From Candidatus Contendibacter sp. (GTDB lineage: Bacteria > Pseudomonadota > Gammaproteobacteria > Competibacterales > Competibacteraceae), in the NCBI GenBank assembly GCA_029624675.1, contig JARSSP010000030.1:142-64141 (forward strand): a stretch of 64,000 nt of DNA, read 5' to 3'. The position numbers and the translations under genes were made by a program. Below the pieces are notes generated by a model that saw nothing but the letters and a program-made list of their open reading frames with translations, was not told where the DNA came from and ran no database searches. Positions 26,219 through 35,957 of the stretch are shown one piece after another (positions within the stretch are counted from its first letter, which is position 1; every line of letters starts with the position of its first letter).

Positions 26219-28885
26219 CTAGCCTTGCGCGATCAGTTGTCGTAGCTCCGGCACGCAGGAACCGCAATTGGTTCCGGCTTTGAGCGTCGCGCCGATGGCC
26301 TCCGGCGTCGCCAATCCCCGTTCGCGAATGGCGGCAGTCAAGGTGTTGAGCCCCACCCCGAAGCAGGCGCAGACGATCCGTCCGCCGTCGCGCTGCCCAC
26401 CGCCCGGCCGCCCGGCCAGCAAGCTGGCGCGCTCGGCGGAACCGAGTTCCGGGGCGGCGAACAGTCCGGCCAACCAGCCGCGCGGCGGCAGTTCGTGGGT
26501 CGGCGCCACGAATAGACAAGCTTCCAGGCGTCCCCCCACCAACACCGCGCCCCGGTAGCGACCCGTACCGGCATCGGCGAACTCCAGCCATTCCCGGTCT
26601 GGATCATCGCCGAGCAAGTCGCGCGCCCAAGCCGGCCAACCGTCAATTGCGGCTTCTCCCGCCAACTCGTAGCGCCAGCAGGTCTGCTCGCGCACGCTGA
26701 CCCGGTACTCGACCGCCGGTGGTTCGATAGCTTCGCGAGATAGCAAGAACCCGTGCCAGCGCGGGCGGTAAGCCTGGACTCGCACTGGGGTATGCTTGGA
26801 TTCCGGTTGGCCGGACAAAGGGTCCACTACCGGATTGACCACCGCGTTGGCCCGCCCGCGCGGCGCCAGCGGCGAACCCCAGTGCATCGGCACGAATACG
26901 TTACCCGGTTGCTGCTCCGGGTTGGTTCGGACCCGGACGATGACCTCGCCCCAGCGGCTATGCACCCGAGCCAGGCCGTTCTCACTCACCCCGCAGGCGA
27001 GTGCATCCACCGGATGAATCTCGACGTAAGGCTCGGGGATATGGCCGGTCAACCGCGCGGTCTTGCCGGTGCGGGTCATGGTATGCCATTGATCGCGAAT
27101 CCGGCCGCTGTTGAGGATCAGCGGAAAGCTGTCATCCGCCGCGTGAACCGGCGCCCGTTCGCCGACCGCGATGCAATGAGCCTTGCCGTCGGCGGTGAAA
27201 AAACCGCCCGCGCCGAACAAACGCTCCGCACCCGCCGTCGCGCCGCGCGGCAGAGGCCATTGCACGGGTTGCAGGGTGTCGTAGTTGGCATCGGCAAGAT
27301 CGGCGAGCGCGGAGATGTCGAAATCGCGACGGCTGCCCCCCTCATTCTCGAACCCCGACAAAGCCGCGTGTTCGCGGAAAATGGCCGCCGGCGATTCAAA
27401 AGGAAACTGGTCAGCGAATCCCAAGCGCCGGGCTATTTGGGTCACGGCCCACCAGTCCGGTTTGGCTTCGCCCGGCGGCGGCAGAAAGGTCCGCTGGCGG
27501 GAAATCCGTCGCTCGGAATTGGTCACCGTGCCCTCTTTCTCGCCCCAGGTCAGCGCCGGCAACTTGATGTGCGCCAGCCGCACGGTGTCGGTATCGGCCA
27601 CGGCGTCGGACACCACCACCAACGGACAGCGTTGCAAAGCGGCCCGCGCGGCGTCGGCGTCGGGCAGACTCACCACCGGATTGGTGCCCATGATCCAAAT
27701 GGCCTTGATCTGGCCGTCGGCGACCGCCTGAAACAGATCGATCGCTTTCAGACCGGGATTTTCGGCAATGGCGGACGCTTGCCAAAACCGCCGCACTCGC
27801 TCGACGGCATCCGGCGCGAAATCCATGTGCGCCGCCAGTTGGTTCGCCAAGCCGCCGACCTCGCGCCCGCCCATCGCGTTCGGCTGGCCGGTGACCGAAA
27901 ACGGTCCCATGCCTGGCTGACCGATGCGCCCGGTCGCCAGATAGCAATTGATGATGGCGTTCACCTTGTCGCTGCCGTGGGCGGATTGATTGACCCCCTG
28001 CGAGTAAACCGTCACCACTTTGCGAGTTCGGCCCCACAAGCCGTAAAACTCGGCGATGTCGCTTGCCGGCAATCCGGTTTTGGCGGCGACGGTAGGAACA
28101 TTCGGCGCAACCGCCTTGGCGGCCTGATACGCCGCCCAGAACCCGGCAACCTGCTGATCGAGAAACTCCGAATCCAAGCGGTCCTGCTGATAGAGATGCA
28201 CCAGCAGGCCGTTGAACAGGGCCGTATCGGAACCGGGCTTGAGCGGCAAATGCGTTTCGGCGGCATCGCAGGTGGCGGTGCGGCGCGGGTCGATCACCAC
28301 CAGTTTCGGTTTGCCCGCGCGCCGTTCCCGCGCGGCGAGGATGCGCTGATACAGCACCGGATGGCACCAGGCCAGATTGGAACCGACCAGCACCACCAGG
28401 TCAGCTTCCTCCAAATCCTCGTAGCAACCGGGCACGGTGTCCGAGCCGAACGCCCGCTTGTGACCGGCGACCGAGGACGCCATGCACAGCCGCGAATTGG
28501 TGTCGATGTTGGCGCCGCCGAGGCAGCCCTTCATCAATTTGTTGGCGACGTAGTAATCCTCGGTCAATAACTGCCCGGAGACGTAAAAAGCGACGGCATC
28601 GGGACCGTGCTCCGCCAGTGCTTGGCGAAAACCGGCGGCGACCGCGTCCAGCGCTTCGTCCCACGACACGCGCCGCCCGCCGACTTCGGGATACAGCAGG
28701 CGATCATCCAGGCTCAGCGTTTCGCCCAGCGCCGCGCCTTTCGAGCACAGCCGCCCATAATTGGCGGGATGCTGTTCGTCGCCTTCCACTTGCGCGCCGC
28801 CGTCAGAATCGACCGTGACTTTCACGCCACAACCGACCCCGCAGTAGGGGCAAGTGGTGCGGATTGTCTCGCCTGTGCCGTTCAT
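26219..28885 (-). CDS. nasA: Assimilatory nitrate reductase catalytic subunit
   Basis: 888 residues, a molybdopterin oxidoreductase. CPYCGVGCGVKV...GRLCSKG binds the N-terminal 4Fe-4S cluster. SNLAWCHPV, GTNPVVSLPDAD and the C-terminal MGD-binding segments (LNSGRIRDQWHTMTRTGK) follow the NasA/NarB pattern. The last 60 residues carry a BFD-like 2Fe-2S domain (CACFGVG...GTNCGSCVPEL), found in NAD(P)H- or flavodoxin-fed Nas enzymes. There is no Tat signal, so it is cytoplasmic. It is the last gene of the nrt-nir-nas operon and reduces nitrate to nitrite for NirBD. Confidence 0.95.
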   Translation of the reverse strand: MNGTGETIRTTCPYCGVGCGVKVTVDSDGGAQVEGDEQHPANYGRLCSKGAALGETLSLDDRLLYPEVGGRRVSWDEALDAVAAGFRQALAEHGPDAVAFYVSGQLLTEDYYVANKLMKGCLGGANIDTNSRLCMASSVAGHKRAFGSDTVPGCYEDLEEADLVVLVGSNLAWCHPVLYQRILAARERRAGKPKLVVIDPRRTATCDAAETHLPLKPGSDTALFNGLLVHLYQQDRLDSEFLDQQVAGFWAAYQAAKAVAPNVPTVAAKTGLPASDIAEFYGLWGRTRKVVTVYSQGVNQSAHGSDKVNAIINCYLATGRIGQPGMGPFSVTGQPNAMGGREVGGLANQLAAHMDFAPDAVERVRRFWQASAIAENPGLKAIDLFQAVADGQIKAIWIMGTNPVVSLPDADAARAALQRCPLVVVSDAVADTDTVRLAHIKLPALTWGEKEGTVTNSERRISRQRTFLPPPGEAKPDWWAVTQIARRLGFADQFPFESPAAIFREHAALSGFENEGGSRRDFDISALADLADANYDTLQPVQWPLPRGATAGAERLFGAGGFFTADGKAHCIAVGERAPVHAADDSFPLILNSGRIRDQWHTMTRTGKTARLTGHIPEPYVEIHPVDALACGVSENGLARVHSRWGEVIVRVRTNPEQQPGNVFVPMHWGSPLAPRGRANAVVNPVVDPLSGQPESKHTPVRVQAYRPRWHGFLLSREAIEPPAVEYRVSVREQTCWRYELAGEAAIDGWPAWARDLLGDDPDREWLEFADAGTGRYRGAVLVGGRLEACLFVAPTHELPPRGWLAGLFAAPELGSAERASLLAGRPGGGQRDGGRIVCACFGVGLNTLTAAIRERGLATPEAIGATLKAGTNCGSCVPELRQLIAQG

Positions 28886-28900
28886 CGCGTCATCCCCCGT

Positions 28901-29251
28901 TCAGGCCGCTTCCCGCGATGCGGACGGCAAGCTGACCACGTTATTCAAACCGAGCCAAAGCCGCCCGTCTTCCAGTCGCGTCGGATAGCGGGTAGCGCAA
29001 CCCACGTCCGGCGCGACCGCCTGACCGCTTTCCAATTCCAACACCCAATTGTGCAGTGGACAGGTGATCCGGTGACCGTGGACGATACCTTGCGATAGCG
29101 GACCACCCTTGTGCGGACAGCGGTCGCGCAGAGCAAAAACCTGATCGTCGGCAGTCCGAAAGATTGCCACGTCGCCGTGTGGCGTATTCACGACCCGTGA
29201 ACCCAAGCGGGGAATATCGTCGAGCGCGCCGATTTCGTGCCAGTCATACAT
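28901..29251 (-). CDS. nirD: Nitrite reductase small subunit
   Basis: 116 residues. It has a Rieske-type 2Fe-2S site (CPHKGG and CPLHNW, each supplying Cys and His). This fits the NirD small subunit of NADH-dependent assimilatory nitrite reductase; many NirD proteins lack these ligands, so this copy probably does carry a cluster. It lies between nirB and nasA with short gaps on either side. Confidence 0.94.
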   Translation of the reverse strand: MYDWHEIGALDDIPRLGSRVVNTPHGDVAIFRTADDQVFALRDRCPHKGGPLSQGIVHGHRITCPLHNWVLELESGQAVAPDVGCATRYPTRLEDGRLWLGLNNVVSLPSASREAA

Positions 29252-29269: not shown

Positions 29270-31708
29270 TCAACCGACTTGCCGCAAGGGTTGAAACTCG
29301 TGCGCGTCCACCCGACCACTGGCGCGTTCCGCCCACGGGTCGATCTGAGCGTACTTTTGCGAATCGAGAAAACGGGCGTAGAGCGCCTTTCGATTCTCTT
29401 CATCCTCGACGATGCGTGCTTTCACGTAGCTCAGGCCGACGCGCTCGATCCACGGCGCGGTGCGTTCCAGATAGCGCCCTTCCTCGCGGTAGATCTGCAT
29501 GAATGCACAGCAATATTCCTTCACTTCCTCTTCCGTGGCGCATTTGCAGAGCAAGTCGGTGCCCCGAATCTTGATGCCGCCGTTGCCGCCGACGTGAATT
29601 TCGTAACCGGACTCGACGCAGACCACGCCGAAATCCTTGATCGTGGCTTCGGCGCAGTTGCGCGGACAGCCGGAGACGGCCATCTTGAACTTGTGCGGCG
29701 TCCACGATCCCCAGGTCATCTTTTCCAGCTTGACGCCGAGGCCGGTGGAATCTTGGGTTCCGAAGCGGCACCAGTCGGAGCCGACGCAGGTTTTCACGGT
29801 GCGCAGGCTTTTGCCGTAGGCGTGGCCGGACACCATGCCGGCAGCGTTGAGATCGGCCCAGACTTTCGGCAAATCTTCCTTTTTGACGCCGAGCAGGTCG
29901 ATGCGCTGGCCGCCGGTCACTTTCACCGTCGGGATCTTGAACTTGTCGGCCACATCGGCGATGGCGCGCAATTCCTTGGGGTTGGTCAGGCCGCCCCACA
30001 TGCGCGGAACCACCGAATAGGTGCCATCTTTCTGGATGTTGGCGTGCACCCGCTCGTTGACGAACCGCGACTGCTGATCGTCTTGCGCTTCGTCCGGCCA
30101 AGTCGAAATCAGGTAGTAATTGATGGCGGGGCGACAGGAATGGCAACCGTCCGGCGTTTTCCATTCCATGAAATCGAATACCGCTCGCAGGCTGGTCAAA
30201 CGCTGCTCCCGGATGGTCTTGCGGACCTGATCGTGGCTGTGCTCGGTGCATTGACACAGCGCCTTTTCCTTCGGCGTCTTGTCGAAGGTACCGACGGTGG
30301 CGGCGAGAATTTGCTCGACCAAGCCGGTGCAGGAACCGCAGGACGCCGACGCCTTGGTGTGGGCGCGTACCTCGTCGACGGTAAACAGCTTCTTTTCGGC
30401 AATCGCCTTGACGATAGCGCCCTTGCACACGCCGTTGCAGCCACAGATTTCGGCGTCGTCGGTCATCGTCATCACGCTGAAACCGTCGCGGCCCGAATCC
30501 GCCATGTGGGCGTGACCGAACAGCACGGTTTCGCGAAACGCGCCGATGTCGGTGCCCTCGCGCAACAACTGGAAATACCACGTGCCATCGACGGTATCGC
30601 CGTACAGCACCGCGCCCTGCACGCGATTTTCCTTGACCACCAGCTTCTTGTAGACGCCGCGCGCCGGATCGCGCAACACGATTTCCTCGCAGCCCGGCCC
30701 GCCGTTGAAGTCGCCGGCGGAGAACAGATCGATGCCGGTCACTTTCAGCTTGGTGCTGGTCACCGATCCCTGATAGCGGCCAATGCCGTAGCGCGCGAGA
30801 TGGTTGGCGCAGACCTTGGCCTGCTCCCACAACGGCGCGACCAGACCGTAGCATTGGCCGCGATGCTGCACGCACTCGCCGACGGCATAGACACGCGGAT
30901 CGTAGCTCTGCATGGTGTCGTTGACGACGACGCCGCGTTCGCAATAAATGCCGGCTTGTTTTGCTAGCTCGATGTTCGGCCGAATACCGACGGCCATCAC
31001 CACCAAATCGGCCGGAATTTCCAGGCCATCCTTGAAACGCACGGCGCGAACCCGTTCTTCGCCGAGCACGGCGGCGGTGTTGGCGCCCATCAAAAAACGC
31101 AAGCCACGCTCTTCCAAACTTGCGCGCAGCATGTCTGCCGCAACCGGGTCGAGTTGGCGCTCCATCAGGGTATCCAGCACATGCACGACCGTGACTTGCA
31201 TTCCCTGCTTCATCAAACCGTTGGCGGCTTCCAAACCGAGCAGTCCGCCGCCGATGATTACCGCGTGCTTGCCGGTTTGCGCCGCCGCCAGCATGGTTTC
31301 CACATCCTTGATGTCGCGAAACCCGATGACACCCGGCAGATCGTTGCCCGGAATCGGCAGAATGAACGGGTTGGAACCGGTCGCCAGCAACAGCCGGTCG
31401 TAGGGCGCAATCGTGCCATCGGTAGCGTGGATTTGCCGCCGCGCCCGGTTGATTCGCGTCACCTCCTGGCCGGCGTATAAGCGAATGCCTTTTTCCGCAT
31501 ACCAGTTCAGATCGTTGATCATGATCTGGTCGATGGATTTTTCGCCGGCCAGCACCGGCGACAGCAGGATGCGGTTGTAGTTGCCGTGTGGCTCCGCGCC
31601 GAACACGGTGATGTCGAATTTATCCGGGGCGATGGCTAGCAACTCTTCCAGGGTACGCATCCCAGCCATGCCGTTGCCGACCAAAACCAGACGTTCTTTC
31701 GCATTCAT
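29270..31708 (-). CDS. nirB: NADH-dependent nitrite reductase large subunit
   Basis: 812 residues. An FAD/NAD domain comes first (LVLVGNGMAGMRTLEEL, VIIGGGLLGLEAANGL, AVGECVQHRG). A BFD-like 2Fe-2S domain follows (CGCNGVCKGAI...CGSCTGLVEQIL), then the siroheme/4Fe-4S reductase domain (CVGSDWCRFGTQDS and SGCPRNCAEATIKD). It reduces nitrite to ammonium with six electrons from NADH. The ATG at 31708 starts directly at the FAD motif; the open frame further upstream is only translated repeat DNA. Confidence 0.95.
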   Translation of the reverse strand: MNAKERLVLVGNGMAGMRTLEELLAIAPDKFDITVFGAEPHGNYNRILLSPVLAGEKSIDQIMINDLNWYAEKGIRLYAGQEVTRINRARRQIHATDGTIAPYDRLLLATGSNPFILPIPGNDLPGVIGFRDIKDVETMLAAAQTGKHAVIIGGGLLGLEAANGLMKQGMQVTVVHVLDTLMERQLDPVAADMLRASLEERGLRFLMGANTAAVLGEERVRAVRFKDGLEIPADLVVMAVGIRPNIELAKQAGIYCERGVVVNDTMQSYDPRVYAVGECVQHRGQCYGLVAPLWEQAKVCANHLARYGIGRYQGSVTSTKLKVTGIDLFSAGDFNGGPGCEEIVLRDPARGVYKKLVVKENRVQGAVLYGDTVDGTWYFQLLREGTDIGAFRETVLFGHAHMADSGRDGFSVMTMTDDAEICGCNGVCKGAIVKAIAEKKLFTVDEVRAHTKASASCGSCTGLVEQILAATVGTFDKTPKEKALCQCTEHSHDQVRKTIREQRLTSLRAVFDFMEWKTPDGCHSCRPAINYYLISTWPDEAQDDQQSRFVNERVHANIQKDGTYSVVPRMWGGLTNPKELRAIADVADKFKIPTVKVTGGQRIDLLGVKKEDLPKVWADLNAAGMVSGHAYGKSLRTVKTCVGSDWCRFGTQDSTGLGVKLEKMTWGSWTPHKFKMAVSGCPRNCAEATIKDFGVVCVESGYEIHVGGNGGIKIRGTDLLCKCATEEEVKEYCCAFMQIYREEGRYLERTAPWIERVGLSYVKARIVEDEENRKALYARFLDSQKYAQIDPWAERASGRVDAHEFQPLRQVG

Positions 31709-31738
31709 CTTCAGAACCTTGCTGTTTGAGGCTCGCGC

Positions 31739-31775
31739 TCCCCTCGCCCTTTGGGAGAGGGGCCGGGGGTGAGGG
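31739..31775. repeat. Short palindromic intergenic repeat between nrtD and nirB
   Basis: This GC-rich sequence has arms CCCCTCGCCC and GGGTGAGGG flanking GGGAGAGGGG. It matches the widely dispersed proteobacterial repeat of the type CCCTC...GGGAGAGGG...GGTGAGGG. It lies within the operon and could form an RNA hairpin that tunes nirB expression or mRNA stability. Confidence 0.6.
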
Positions 31776-31781
31776 AAGCTG

Positions 31782-32573
31782 TCATGCCGCTTCCGGCCGC
31801 CGCTGCCGCTCGTAGAGGAAGCGCAGCACTTCGGCGCGATAGTGGTTGTAGGTCGGGTCATCCGCCAGTTCGAGCCGGTTGCGCGGGCGCGGCAAATCCA
31901 CCTTGAGAATTTCCCCCACCGTCGCCGCCGGACCGTTGGTCATCATGACGATGCGGTCGGACAGCAACACCGCCTCGTCCACGTCGTGAGTGATCATGAG
32001 CACGGTGTTGTTGAGGGCGGCTTGAATTTCCATCACCGATTCCTGCAAGTGGGCGCGAGTCAGGGCGTCGAGCGCGCCGAACGGCTCGTCCATCAGCAGG
32101 ACCTTGGGCTGCATCGCCAAGGCGCGGGCGATGCCGACTCGCTGCTTCATGCCGCCGGAAATCTCGCCCGGCCGCTGATCCAGCGCGTGCTCCATGTGGA
32201 CCAGCCGGAGATTGTGGAGGGTCCAATCGTGACGCTCGGCCTTGGACTTGCTCTTGCCAAACACCTTGTCCACCGCGATCCGCACGTTCTCGTACACCGT
32301 CAGCCACGGCAACAGCGAGTGGTTCTGGAACACCACGGCGCGATCCGGGCCGGGGCTGTTCACCTCCTTGTTTTCCAGTAACACGCCGCCACGAGTGGCT
32401 TCGAGCAGGCCGGCGACCACGTTCAGCACCGTGGATTTACCGCATCCGGAATGGCCGATGATGGCGATGAATTCGCCTTTTTCGATTTCGAGATGCACTT
32501 CGCGCAGGGCGATGAAGGCGCCGTTGTTAGTGGGAAACACCACATCCACGTTGGAAATGTTCAGGTAGCTCAC
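31782..32573 (-). CDS. nrtD: Nitrate ABC transporter ATP-binding protein
   Basis: 263 residues. Walker [11 protein letters not shown]-loop FQNHSLLPW, signature [15 protein letters not shown], Walker [13 protein letters not shown] and the switch histidine in MITHDVDEA are all present. [16 protein letters not shown] and the closing [21 protein letters not shown] are typical of the nitrate/taurine-type importers (NrtD/NasD). It powers uptake with NrtA and NrtB. No second, NrtC-like ATPase is present. Confidence 0.94.
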
Positions 32574-32585
32574 GGCGATTCCCTC

Positions 32586-33539
32586 TCAACGGCGGTTGTA
32601 GTCGAAATGGCGCTGCGCCAGATTCATCAGGCTTTCCAGCACGATGCCGACTAGCCCGATGAGGCCGATGGCGACGATGATCGAAGCGACGTTGAGGTTG
32701 TTCCACTCGTCCCAGACATAGAAGCCGATGCCGATGCCGCCAGTGAGCATTTCCGCCGCCACGATCACCATCCAGGCCACGCTCAGCGACAACCTCATGC
32801 CGGTCAGAATATGCGGCAGAGTGGCCGGTAACAGGATGCGGCGGGTGATTTCCAGCTTGCCCAGCCGCAGCACCCGCGCCACGTTGAGATAGTCTTTTGG
32901 AATCGCCTGCACCCCGGCGGCGGTGTTGACGATCACCGGCCAGATGCTGGTGATGAAGATCACGAAAATCGCGGACGGATCTTTCGCCTGAAACACCAGC
33001 AGGCCGATGGGTAGCCAGGCCAGCGGGCTGACCGGCCGGAGAATTTGCACCAGCGGATAGCAGGCCTGGTGCACGTCGCGGCTGGCGCCCATCAGAAAGC
33101 CGACCGGAATCCCCACCGCAACCGCCAGGGCGAAGCCGGCCAAGACCCGGCCCAGCGAATACAACACCTGCCAGCCGATGCCCATGTCGTTGGGGCCGGC
33201 GACGTAGAACGGCTGGCCGAAAATTTCCACCGCCCGCGCCCACGTCGCGGCGGGCGTCGGAATGTCGCTGGTGATTTTGGCGTTGACCAGCATCCAAACC
33301 ACCAGCACCAGCAGGAAAACCGCTCCCGGTAGAATGATGGCGCGGGCAATGGCGGCGGCACGCAACCTGGCGCGCGATACCGGCGGAGAGAGAGCCTGGA
33401 TCGGCACGGCTGGTGGTTGCCGCTCGGCATTGGCGGCGGGCGTGACGATCCGCTCCCCGGCCAGGGGAACCGGCAATGACGATTCCGGGCGCTCGGACTT
33501 CACCGGCAATACGGTGGCCAGGGCAATCACCTTGCTCAT
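32586..33539 (-). CDS. nrtB: Nitrate ABC transporter permease
   Basis: 317 residues with about six membrane helices after a 65-residue Pro-rich cytoplasmic tail. The family pattern is visible: VGIPVGFLMG, ILRPVSPLAWLPIGLLVF, VIFITSIWPVIVNTAAGVQAIPKDYLNVARVL (EAA-type loop) and MRLSLSVAWMVIVAAEML. The ATG at 33539 is chosen because GGAGGAG stands just upstream. It forms the membrane channel of the NrtABD importer. Confidence 0.94.
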   Translation of the reverse strand: MSKVIALATVLPVKSERPESSLPVPLAGERIVTPAANAERQPPAVPIQALSPPVSRARLRAAAIARAIILPGAVFLLVLVVWMLVNAKITSDIPTPAATWARAVEIFGQPFYVAGPNDMGIGWQVLYSLGRVLAGFALAVAVGIPVGFLMGASRDVHQACYPLVQILRPVSPLAWLPIGLLVFQAKDPSAIFVIFITSIWPVIVNTAAGVQAIPKDYLNVARVLRLGKLEITRRILLPATLPHILTGMRLSLSVAWMVIVAAEMLTGGIGIGFYVWDEWNNLNVASIIVAIGLIGLVGIVLESLMNLAQRHFDYNRR

Positions 33540-33557
33540 ATCAGTCTCCTCCCCCAT

Positions 33558-34985
33558 TCAGGCGTTGGCCTTGACCAAGGCTTCCGGCGCGACTTTCAGA
33601 TTTTTCACCGCGAAGCCGGCGACGTACTCGCCCGATTTCTTGGGATCGAACCGGCCGCCGTCGAAGAACCGATCCGGCCCCATCGCGATCGGGCTGGTGG
33701 CTTCGGCCAACGTCCAGGGTCCGGGGTTGACCCCTTCCGACTTGACCTCGACGGTGGGATACGGTACGCCCAGCGCCTTGGCGGCTTGCCGATACAGATC
33801 GGGGCGATAGACCGAAGCGGCGGCCTGAAGAATGTTCGCCGGCTGCTCCAACTGCCCCCAGCGGTACATCTGGCCGATGAACCAGGCGGCGTGCGATTGC
33901 CAGGGGAAATTGGCGGCGTAGCGGTAGAACACATTGAAATCCGGCAGTGGGCGCGGCTCCTCGTTTTGCGCGTACTTGAAGGTGCCGGTCATCGACATCT
34001 TCACCGTATCCTCGGGCGCGTTGACGTAGGACTTTTGCGCAATCAGCTTGACCACTTCCATGCGGTTATCCGGCTGATCCATCCATTGCGTCGCTTCCAA
34101 TAGGGCCATGAGCAGCGCCTGGTGGGTGCGCGAATGCTTCTCGTGCCATTCCAGGTTGACGCCGAACACTTTTTCGGGATTGTTGTTCCACAATTCGTAA
34201 CTGGTGATCAGCACCCGGCCGATGCCGGTTTCCACCGCCCGCTCGTTCCACGGCTCGCCCACGCAATAGCCGGCGATGTTGCCTGCTTTAAGGTTGGCCA
34301 CCATCTGCGGCGGCGGAATCACGATCAAGCGCAAGTCCTGATCGGGATTGATACCCGCCGATCCCAACCAATAGCGCAATTGATAGTTGTGGGTGGAGAC
34401 CGGAAACACGACCGCGAAGGTCATCGGCTCCTTGCCGGCGGCCTTGTCGGCGTCGATGACCTTTTTCAGGGCGCGGGCGGTGAGCGGACGTTCCTGCATC
34501 GCTTCGGGGTCCGCTTTCGCCATCCGCTCGTACAACTCGTTGGAAACAGTGACGGCGTTGCCGTTGAGGTCCAGTGAGAAGGCGGTAATGGTGGCCTTGG
34601 GCAACGCGCCGACGCCGAGGCTGGCGGCGATGGGCATCCCCGCCAGCATGTGCGCGCCGTCCAGTTCGCCGATGGCGACCTTGTCGCGGATGTTGGCCCA
34701 GGACGCCTCCTTGGACAGCACCACCTCCAGGCCATATTTCTTGAAATAACCCTTCTCGAAAGCCACCACCAGCGGTGCGCAGTCGGTGAGCGGAATGAAC
34801 CCCAAGGTCAATTTGGTTTTCTCCAAACCGCCGCTTTCGCCCGCCCAAGCGCTGGTTCGCAGCCAAGGAGGCGTCCCGCCCAGCAAGGTAGCGCCGCCCA
34901 GCGCCAGCCCGCCCGTTTTCAAGAACGTGCGCCGGGACAAGCCGGGCGCTTGCGCCAATTCGTTCGTCGTGTTCGATCCGCTCAT
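33558..34985 (-). CDS. nrtA: Nitrate/nitrite ABC transporter substrate-binding protein
   Basis: 475 residues. A Tat signal (LSRRTFLKTGGLALGGATLLGG) sends the folded protein to the periplasm. LGFIPLTDCAPLVVAFEKGYFKKYGLEV, IGELDGAHMLAGMPIA and GYCVGEPWNERAVE are hallmarks of NrtA-type nitrate binders. It is the first gene after the regulated leader. The related cytoplasmic sensor NasS lacks a signal peptide, so this is a transport protein and not NasS. Confidence 0.95.
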   Translation of the reverse strand: MSGSNTTNELAQAPGLSRRTFLKTGGLALGGATLLGGTPPWLRTSAWAGESGGLEKTKLTLGFIPLTDCAPLVVAFEKGYFKKYGLEVVLSKEASWANIRDKVAIGELDGAHMLAGMPIAASLGVGALPKATITAFSLDLNGNAVTVSNELYERMAKADPEAMQERPLTARALKKVIDADKAAGKEPMTFAVVFPVSTHNYQLRYWLGSAGINPDQDLRLIVIPPPQMVANLKAGNIAGYCVGEPWNERAVETGIGRVLITSYELWNNNPEKVFGVNLEWHEKHSRTHQALLMALLEATQWMDQPDNRMEVVKLIAQKSYVNAPEDTVKMSMTGTFKYAQNEEPRPLPDFNVFYRYAANFPWQSHAAWFIGQMYRWGQLEQPANILQAAASVYRPDLYRQAAKALGVPYPTVEVKSEGVNPGPWTLAEATSPIAMGPDRFFDGGRFDPKKSGEYVAGFAVKNLKVAPEALVKANA

Positions 34986-35007: not shown

Positions 35008-35055
35008 ATAAAAAAGGCGTCCAGCTCTCGCGCGAAACACGAGAACTGGACGCCT
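35008..35055 (-). terminator. Leader terminator (attenuator) before nrtA
   Basis: Read on the minus strand, AGGCGTCCAG (35054-35045) and CTGGACGCCT (35025-35016) pair through a long stem that also takes in TTCTCG and CGAGAG. A run of T follows, ending about 22 bases before the nrtA start. Such a strong terminator inside a 5' leader would stop transcription unless antitermination occurs. Confidence 0.92.
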
Positions 35056-35065
35056 TTGTCCGATG

Positions 35066-35110
35066 CGCGACCGCCGTTGGCCGCGTGACCCGTCCCAGCG
35101 GTGGGAGGGG
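35066..35110 (-). promoter_or_regulatory. ANTAR (NasT) target: two tandem hexaloop hairpins
   Basis: On the minus strand, hairpin P1 (35110-35089) has stems CCC/TCCC and GGGA/GGG with one C-C mismatch and the loop ACCGCT. Hairpin P2 (35085-35066) has arms CGCGGCC and GGTCGCG with the loop AACGGC. Both six-base loops have A at position 1 and G at position 4, the known ANTAR recognition rule. P2 ends just before the terminator stem. Binding of NasT should favour readthrough into nrtA. Confidence 0.88.
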
Positions 35111-35125
35111 TTGTTAATCTGAATT

Positions 35126-35143
35126 AGGCACGATTCGCGCCAA
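35126..35143 (-). promoter_or_regulatory. Sigma-54 type promoter of the nrt-nir-nas operon
   Basis: The minus strand reads TTGGCGCGAATCGTGCCT. GG (35141-35140) and GC (35129-35128) are separated by 10 bases, as required at -24 and -12, and most other positions fit TGGCACG-N4-TTGC. The start point would fall about 12 bases downstream, only a few bases before hairpin P1. A GGTGCA half-site on the minus strand (35256-35251), about 120 bp upstream, could bind NtrC. Confidence 0.68.
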
Positions 35144-35281
35144 AATCATTTAGTCATTGATATTGGCCGAAGCTGGCTTGTGGATCGAAACGTTTTGCGC
35201 GGCTTACGCCCGTCCGATTTGCGCTATCGTGGCGCATGGCATTCCCGTCTTGCACCACATTGAGCGGCGGTAACCCCGCAT

Positions 35282-35863
35282 TCAACTCAACAGCTCCAGC
35301 AACGAAACCACGGTGCGCGCCACCTCTCCGACTCGTTGATTGCGATCCATCGCCAGCTTGCGCAAGGTCTGGTAGGCCTCTTCCTCGCTCAGATTCCGTT
35401 GCGCCATCAGCAAACCCTTGGCTTTTTCGACCACTTTGCGCTCGGCCAGCCGGTTGCGGGTTTCCTCCAGTTCCCGGCGCAGGGCCTGATACTCGCGGAA
35501 CCGGGCGATGGCGACATCCATGATCGGCTGGAGACGGCGCGGATTGAGATCGTCCACCACGTAGGCGCTGACGCCGGCGCGCAAGGCGGCGGCAGTGGTT
35601 TCGGGATCGCTGCGCTCGGCGAACATCACGATGGGCCGAGGCTGGTCTTGTCCGATCTCGCGCAATTGCTCCAGGGTATCGCGGTCGGGTAGATCGATGT
35701 CGATCAGAATCACGTCCGGCCTGGTTTCCCGCACCTGTTGCAACAGCTTGTGGGTGCCGGCGGTTCGGACCGTGATCCGGTAGCCGGCATCGCTCAGCGC
35801 TTGCTCCAGAATCGCCGACCGCCCCGAATGGGCATCGATCAACATGACTTCGATTTTCTTCAT
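35282..35863 (-). CDS. nasT: NasT-type response regulator with ANTAR RNA-binding domain
   Basis: 193 residues. The receiver-like domain keeps D55 (VILIDIDLP), but D10 is followed by Ala, so the usual acidic pair is incomplete, as in other NasT proteins. The C-terminal ANTAR domain shows LAERKVVEKAKGLLMAQRNLSEEEAYQTLRKLAMDRN. It should bind the paired hexaloops directly downstream and prevent termination before nrtA. The partner sensor nasS, usually adjacent, is not in the window. Confidence 0.92.
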   Translation of the reverse strand: MKKIEVMLIDAHSGRSAILEQALSDAGYRITVRTAGTHKLLQQVRETRPDVILIDIDLPDRDTLEQLREIGQDQPRPIVMFAERSDPETTAAALRAGVSAYVVDDLNPRRLQPIMDVAIARFREYQALRRELEETRNRLAERKVVEKAKGLLMAQRNLSEEEAYQTLRKLAMDRNQRVGEVARTVVSLLELLS

Positions 35864-35957
35864 CGACGGCCTTGGTTCGCTCGATACTCAACACTGGTGA
35901 CAGAGCACTAACCATGCCAATCCCTATCGATTCACTGCTGGCGCCCTCGCCGCATCT

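Follow-up and report, generated by a model that had tools for sequence, protein, structure and literature searches.

A predicted NasT-type antitermination leader with three hexaloops in a Candidatus Contendibacter genome without a detected NasS

Overview

The region between nasT and nrtA on the minus strand of a 64-kb stretch of the Candidatus Contendibacter sp. genome (the window) holds what is, judging by conservation, covariation and gene context, a well-supported ANTAR/NasT antitermination leader under sigma-54 control. It is not a standard, clean example of NasT attenuation; it is a variant of the NasT type, with three hexaloop hairpins, in a NasS-free genome. Within this one leader, comparative sequence analysis allows each component to be checked: promoter, activator site, terminator and the three putative hairpin sites for the protein.

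Organization of the leader

Read along the minus strand from 35143 to 35008, the leader comprises a sigma-54-type -24/-12 element (TGGCGCGAATCGTGC; 35128..35142), a hairpin with the loop ACCGCT (35088..35111; loop at 35102-35097), another with the loop AACGGC (35066..35085; loop at 35078-35073), and an intrinsic terminator (35008..35057) whose 20-21 bp stem (35057-35013; -37.6 kcal/mol on folding) is followed by a U tract ahead of the nrtA start at 34985. A first-pass annotation of the DNA had named these four elements, a strong terminator among them, and had stated that both loops obey the ANTAR rule of A at position 1 and G at position 4 (A1/G4) and that a gene for an ANTAR protein, nasT, lies immediately upstream; our analysis bears out each of these points. 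Its placement of the transcript start a few bases ahead of the first hairpin also agrees with the predicted start at ~35116, 4-5 nt before that stem. Folding of the 110-nt leader yields -64.3 kcal/mol (z = -7.8), and none of 200 shuffled sequences was equally stable.

A hexaloop-hairpin scan recovered a third such structure that had been overlooked, GGAC-AAAGGC-GUCC (35048..35061, minus strand), which runs into the terminator. Its loop and 3' half constitute the 5' arm of the terminator, and with positions 35057-35048 common to the hairpin and the terminator stem the two structures are mutually exclusive. In the published ANTAR mechanism, P1 lies upstream and P2 stands at the 5' base of the terminator, in competition with it (PMC3369931). 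Because this geometry puts P2 at the terminator base, we term the newly found hairpin P2, the AACGGC hairpin (formerly called P2) P1, and the ACCGCT hairpin (formerly P1) P0, an extra element. The earlier assignment of the ACCGCT and AACGGC hairpins as the NasT target pair accordingly has to be abandoned, as both lie upstream and neither competes with the terminator. The linkers measure 2 nt between P0 and P1 and 4 nt between P1 and P2, corresponding to loop-to-loop spacings of 24 and 21 nt, respectively; spacing varies widely across NasT leaders, and in the eut (EutV) leaders of E. faecalis the stems are separated by linkers of 5-12 nt, with 3 nt being too short (PMC3369931).

Conservation and covariation of P1, P2 and the terminator

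Most of the relatives' NasT loci that were scanned carry a P2-type hairpin at the terminator foot. Every cell (100%) for the four loop-nearest pairs of each of P1 and P2 is paired across 25 distinct leaders, a figure biased towards the model because the scan from which the leaders were taken, directly or by visual selection, itself demanded four pairs as well as A1 and G4. Two-sided changes, seen in six of the eight P1/P2 pairs, are independent of how the leaders were chosen, and in slid-partner controls on the same set pairing falls to 24-56%. Loop positions A1, A2 and G4 (the first and last of these demanded by the scan) are invariant in both hairpins among 26 aligned leaders, and the terminator is kept in relatives with three compensatory pairs. 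A P1-P2 covariance model (R1), built partly from this very leader, matches it at 35085-35046 with 53.5 bits; the next match in the genome scores 26 bits, and the leader is the only strong one. A short P2 sequence pattern proved not to be specific in this genome, its matches being no more numerous than with a reversed control.

We consider it very probable that the leader of this nitrate-assimilation operon is controlled by ANTAR-type antitermination in the following way. Under nitrogen limitation, NtrC and sigma-54 RNA polymerase would start transcription of both nasT and the leader, which by default would fold the terminator and thereby stop transcription before nrtA. Active NasT would bind the hexaloops of P1 (35085-35066) and P2 (35061-35048), and P2 held by NasT would block the terminator, because it sequesters the terminator's 5' arm, thus allowing the operon to be read through. 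The isolated P2 hairpin is weak relative to the terminator (-4.0 versus -37.6 kcal/mol), and NasT must therefore act kinetically. P0, at the extreme 5' end of the transcript, could give NasT an early loading site ahead of the emergence of P2.

Promoters and nitrogen control

Matches to the -24/-12 pattern number 9 in the window against 5.1 expected, so that such a match does not by itself clearly exceed chance. In each of the eight Competibacteraceae, the leader element keeps a nearly constant distance to P0, its GG-N10-GC spacing is conserved, and RpoN is encoded in the genome. Further upstream is a putative enhancer, the NtrC-like site TGCGCCACGATAGCGCA (35220..35236, minus strand), which shows aligned conservation and a constant distance in relatives: about -178 from the P2 loop, and ~93 bp upstream of the -24/-12 element in most of the eight Competibacteraceae. 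This conserved putative site resembles TGCGCCAYGATRGCGCA, and an NtrC protein (756 bits) is encoded. A second conserved sigma-54-type -24/-12 pattern match, TGGCATGGTTAGTGC (35905..35919, minus strand), stands upstream of nasT, and TGGCATGGWTAGTGC occurs 55-61 nt before nasT in 6 of the 7 other Competibacteraceae checked. The conserved NtrC-like site, RpoN, NtrC and the nasT sigma-54 site together support nitrogen control. Of the earlier description of the locus as clean nitrate-controlled attenuation under nitrogen control, the sigma-54/NtrC part is well supported, but nitrate control is not established because NasS is missing genome-wide (see below).

NasT and the operon genes

The genes that follow the leader on the same strand are, in order, nrtA, nrtB, nrtC, nirB, nirD and a nasC-like reductase gene. 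nrtA (33558..34985; NMT1_2, 326 bits) codes for a nitrate-binding protein with a Tat signal (SRRTFLK), whose nearest relatives of solved structure are nitrate-transport proteins. It is succeeded by genes for the permease (nrtB, 32586..33557; TIGR01183, 238.6 bits) and ATPase (nrtC, 31782..32573; TIGR01184, 338.4 bits) of a nitrate ABC transporter, and for the large (nirB, 29270..31861; TIGR02374, 965.8 bits) and small (nirD, 28901..29251; TIGR02378, 97.9 bits) subunits of nitrite reductase, all four scores being above the respective cut-offs; the true start of nirB probably lies downstream of the first ATG of its ORF. The last gene (26219..28885) encodes a nasC-like molybdopterin oxidoreductase with a C-terminal BFD domain, identified by domain matches; the NasC and Fdh-alpha models match it below their cut-offs, and it is a probable assimilatory nitrate reductase. 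In Candidatus Competibacter phosphatis, nrtA (L041 5714-7304) is split into two overlapping frames by either a frameshift or an assembly error.

nasT (35282..35863, minus strand) codes for a predicted RNA-binding antiterminator combining a pseudo-receiver (Response_reg, 58 bits) with an ANTAR domain (75 bits), and is 98% identical to the NasT of Candidatus Contendobacter, to which the genome is closest. It retains the residues by which EutV contacts the hexaloop at R142, K143, K147, K149, E160, Y164, R168, M172 and R177, while N173 and R175 are replaced by D and N. The receiver is devoid of the phosphorylation Thr/Ser and Lys, and the lysine is missing from 63 of 63 NasT-like proteins; as it is kept in none of them, we judge phosphorylation unlikely and regulation by a partner protein likelier. 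A second ANTAR protein of the receiver-ANTAR type (~346 aa) is encoded at G000:C26:96876-97022(+), immediately behind a partial gene whose end codes for a receiver domain.

Absence of NasS and candidate nitrate sensors

NasS was not found in the whole genome (100% complete), whose only three NMT1_2 proteins are the Tat-signal NrtA, the sole strong match, and two unrelated binding proteins. It was likewise not found in the other NasT-bearing Competibacteraceae and in several betaproteobacteria, isolates included (the NMT1_2 count of G022 being uninformative owing to short contigs and a cut nrtA); in the Halomonas and Oceanospirillaceae relatives, nasT adjoins a gene for a signal-less NasS. Retention of the leader despite the lack of its only known nitrate sensor extends to many NasT-bearing proteobacteria, among them the cultured Vogesella and Methylobacillus. 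Vogesella indigofera (G100) has three separate NasT-type leader matches within 7 kb (C1:435070, 438383 and 441671).

Given that the loss of NasS in Paracoccus results in constitutive expression (PMC3795266), the main alternative is that NasT is gated by nitrogen status alone: a NasS-free NasT would be constitutively active, its amount would be the gate, and NtrC and sigma-54 would form a feed-forward nitrogen switch devoid of nitrate sensing. The genome-wide absence of NasS, the conserved sigma-54 site of nasT itself and the receiver lacking phosphorylation residues are all consistent with such a switch. However, a leader that is always read through would be redundant, yet this one is strongly conserved, and the pseudo-receiver, which is thought to bind a partner, has been retained; we give this reading slightly less than an even chance.

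The other reading supplies a partner, with the Tat-signal NrtA replacing NasS by folding in the cytoplasm before export, holding NasT and releasing it on binding nitrate. NrtA is the only strong candidate nitrate sensor that we could identify in the genome, and it is encoded right after nasT. In a tree of NrtA and NasS proteins, for which no root was inferred, a branch with support of 100/98 separates the NasS proteins from the rest, and the Tat-NrtA proteins of this genome, G094 and G010 fall between NasS and two other NrtA clades, the latter split having modest support (90/56). By this topology, Tat-NrtA is the nearest transport-type relative of NasS, albeit with modest support, and given that modest split we regard it as a candidate sensor and no more. 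Against the replacement of NasS stands also the presence of Sec-type NrtA in some NasS-less genomes with NasT (G049, G082), and we view it as tentative and somewhat unlikely. If true, one and the same protein would first sense nitrate and later carry it. More doubtful is the full NasS-free scheme wherein NrtA, prior to its export from the cytoplasm, senses nitrate and holds NasT, and up to three NasT dimers occupy the three-hexaloop leader. We dropped the idea that NasS loss strictly accompanies a Tat-type NrtA, since there are genomes with a Sec-type NrtA and no NasS as well as ones with NasS and a Tat-type NrtA. The branching of NrtA beside the NasS clade may bear on the origin of NasS.

The extra hexaloop P0

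P0 is paired in 100% of the eight Competibacteraceae, with two compensatory pairs, and its loops there are ACCGCT, ACTGGC, ACTGGC, ACCGAC, ATTGGC, AGCGAC, AATGGT and AAAGGC; hence only A1 and G4 are fixed and the other four positions vary. It is absent from most other NasT leaders, and in leaders with two hairpins P1 occupies the position of P0 relative to the promoter. An extra A1/G4 hexaloop nonetheless lies at most 45 nt before P1 in 8 of 26 leaders from different lineages (shuffled mean 0.56), and the strict form CC(A..G..)GG does so in 5 of 26 (shuffled mean 0.03, maximum 1 in 500 shuffles). These counts indicate that P0 is more than a chance occurrence, with P0-like hexaloops recurring far above chance in four lineages besides Competibacteraceae. 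The likeliest role for P0 is that of a third NasT site serving to load the protein early, given that each hexaloop is engaged separately by an ANTAR dimer (PMC8934654). P0 may be a weaker site than P1 and P2: formation of an additional A-U pair can shrink its ACCGCU loop in this genome to a tetraloop, and the second A, which never varies in the other two hairpins, is missing. A tie between P0 and NasS loss was dropped, as many NasS-less betaproteobacteria carry two hairpins only.

The same closable A-U pair and missing second A, along with the location at the extreme 5' end, could also mean that P0 is a structural stabilizer of the 5' end of the transcript and not a NasT site. We think this unlikely: precisely the two loop positions needed for ANTAR binding, 1 and 4, are the only invariant ones in the eight species, and hairpins following the same rule recur in unrelated lineages. 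The proposal implicit in the first-pass annotation, that P0 and P1 are the target pair and that their binding blocks termination without a competing hairpin, is very improbable: both hairpins are real, obey the A1/G4 rule and have a loop spacing (24 nt) near that of P1-P2 (21 nt), but most NasT leaders are missing P0 while keeping a covarying P1 and terminator-overlapping P2, and the published mechanism requires P2 at the base of the terminator (PMC3369931).

Comparison with known systems

A close mechanistic parallel is the EutV/eutP antiterminator (PMC3369931; PMC8934654), which likewise has a REC-ANTAR gene nearby and two A1/G4 hexaloops, of which the second sits at the terminator's 5' base and cannot coexist with the terminator. 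The present system differs in its three hexaloops, its pseudo-receiver devoid of the phosphorylation lysine, its sigma-54 promoter and its shorter linkers (4 and 2 nt). With the NasS-NasT systems of Paracoccus and Bradyrhizobium (PMC3795266; PMC5424462; PMC6759348) it shares an orthologous NasT, a nitrate-assimilation operon, and leader hairpins with a terminator; unlike them, it has no NasS, with nasT alone being followed by the leader and nrtABC-nirBD. The Klebsiella NasR/nasF leader (PMC7496416; PMC3369931) serves the same target process and follows the A1/G4 hexaloop rule, and an MDxNQR loop is common to NasR and the NasT described here. However, NasR has a nitrate-sensing NIT domain of its own, whereas a domain search of NasT found Response_reg in its place and no NIT domain. 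In the open-access literature searched, we found no description of three hexaloops or of a NasS-less NasT.

No Rfam family reaches its gathering threshold anywhere in the window, and no curated family does so for these NasT leaders. Below that level, the segment 35154-35016(-) matches P11 (RF00625; 32.0 bits, gathering 70) and narK RNA (RF03032; 32.6 bits, gathering 43.2), both aligning with it, including over the P2 sequence, which appears as GGACAAAGGCGUCC in P11 and GACAAAGACGUC in narK RNA. P11 is catalogued as an sRNA gene; besides a -24/-12 element and a terminator, its model includes a hairpin with an A1/G4 hexaloop as well as GGACAAAGGCGUCC. The narK RNA model holds an AACGGC hairpin and GACAAAGACGUC. 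This arrangement suggests that both models represent NasT leaders. NfiR, a P. stutzeri ncRNA that was described as a P11 homolog and adjoins nasA (PMC6606865), probably contains one too. Thus, several RNAs filed as independent families or sRNAs may contain NasT leaders.

A second structured RNA in Competibacteraceae

The P1-P2 model has a second match in this genome, at G000:C44:169659-169699(-) (loci L251/L210), with copies in L233-L241, L243-L250 and L252. We rejected it as a second NasT leader, as it is invariant in Competibacteraceae without a detected ANTAR protein and its P2-like loop is without a constant A1. No Rfam family matches it at the gathering threshold, and the class sample searched contained no exact copy outside Competibacteraceae. 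This RNA is present in 19 Competibacteraceae genomes, usually before coaBC, and is composed of a sigma-54-like element, a covarying 5' hairpin, an invariant GGCGGCTAACGGGGGCCGCCGTCGCGGAC core and a terminator; it possibly represents a new ncRNA family.
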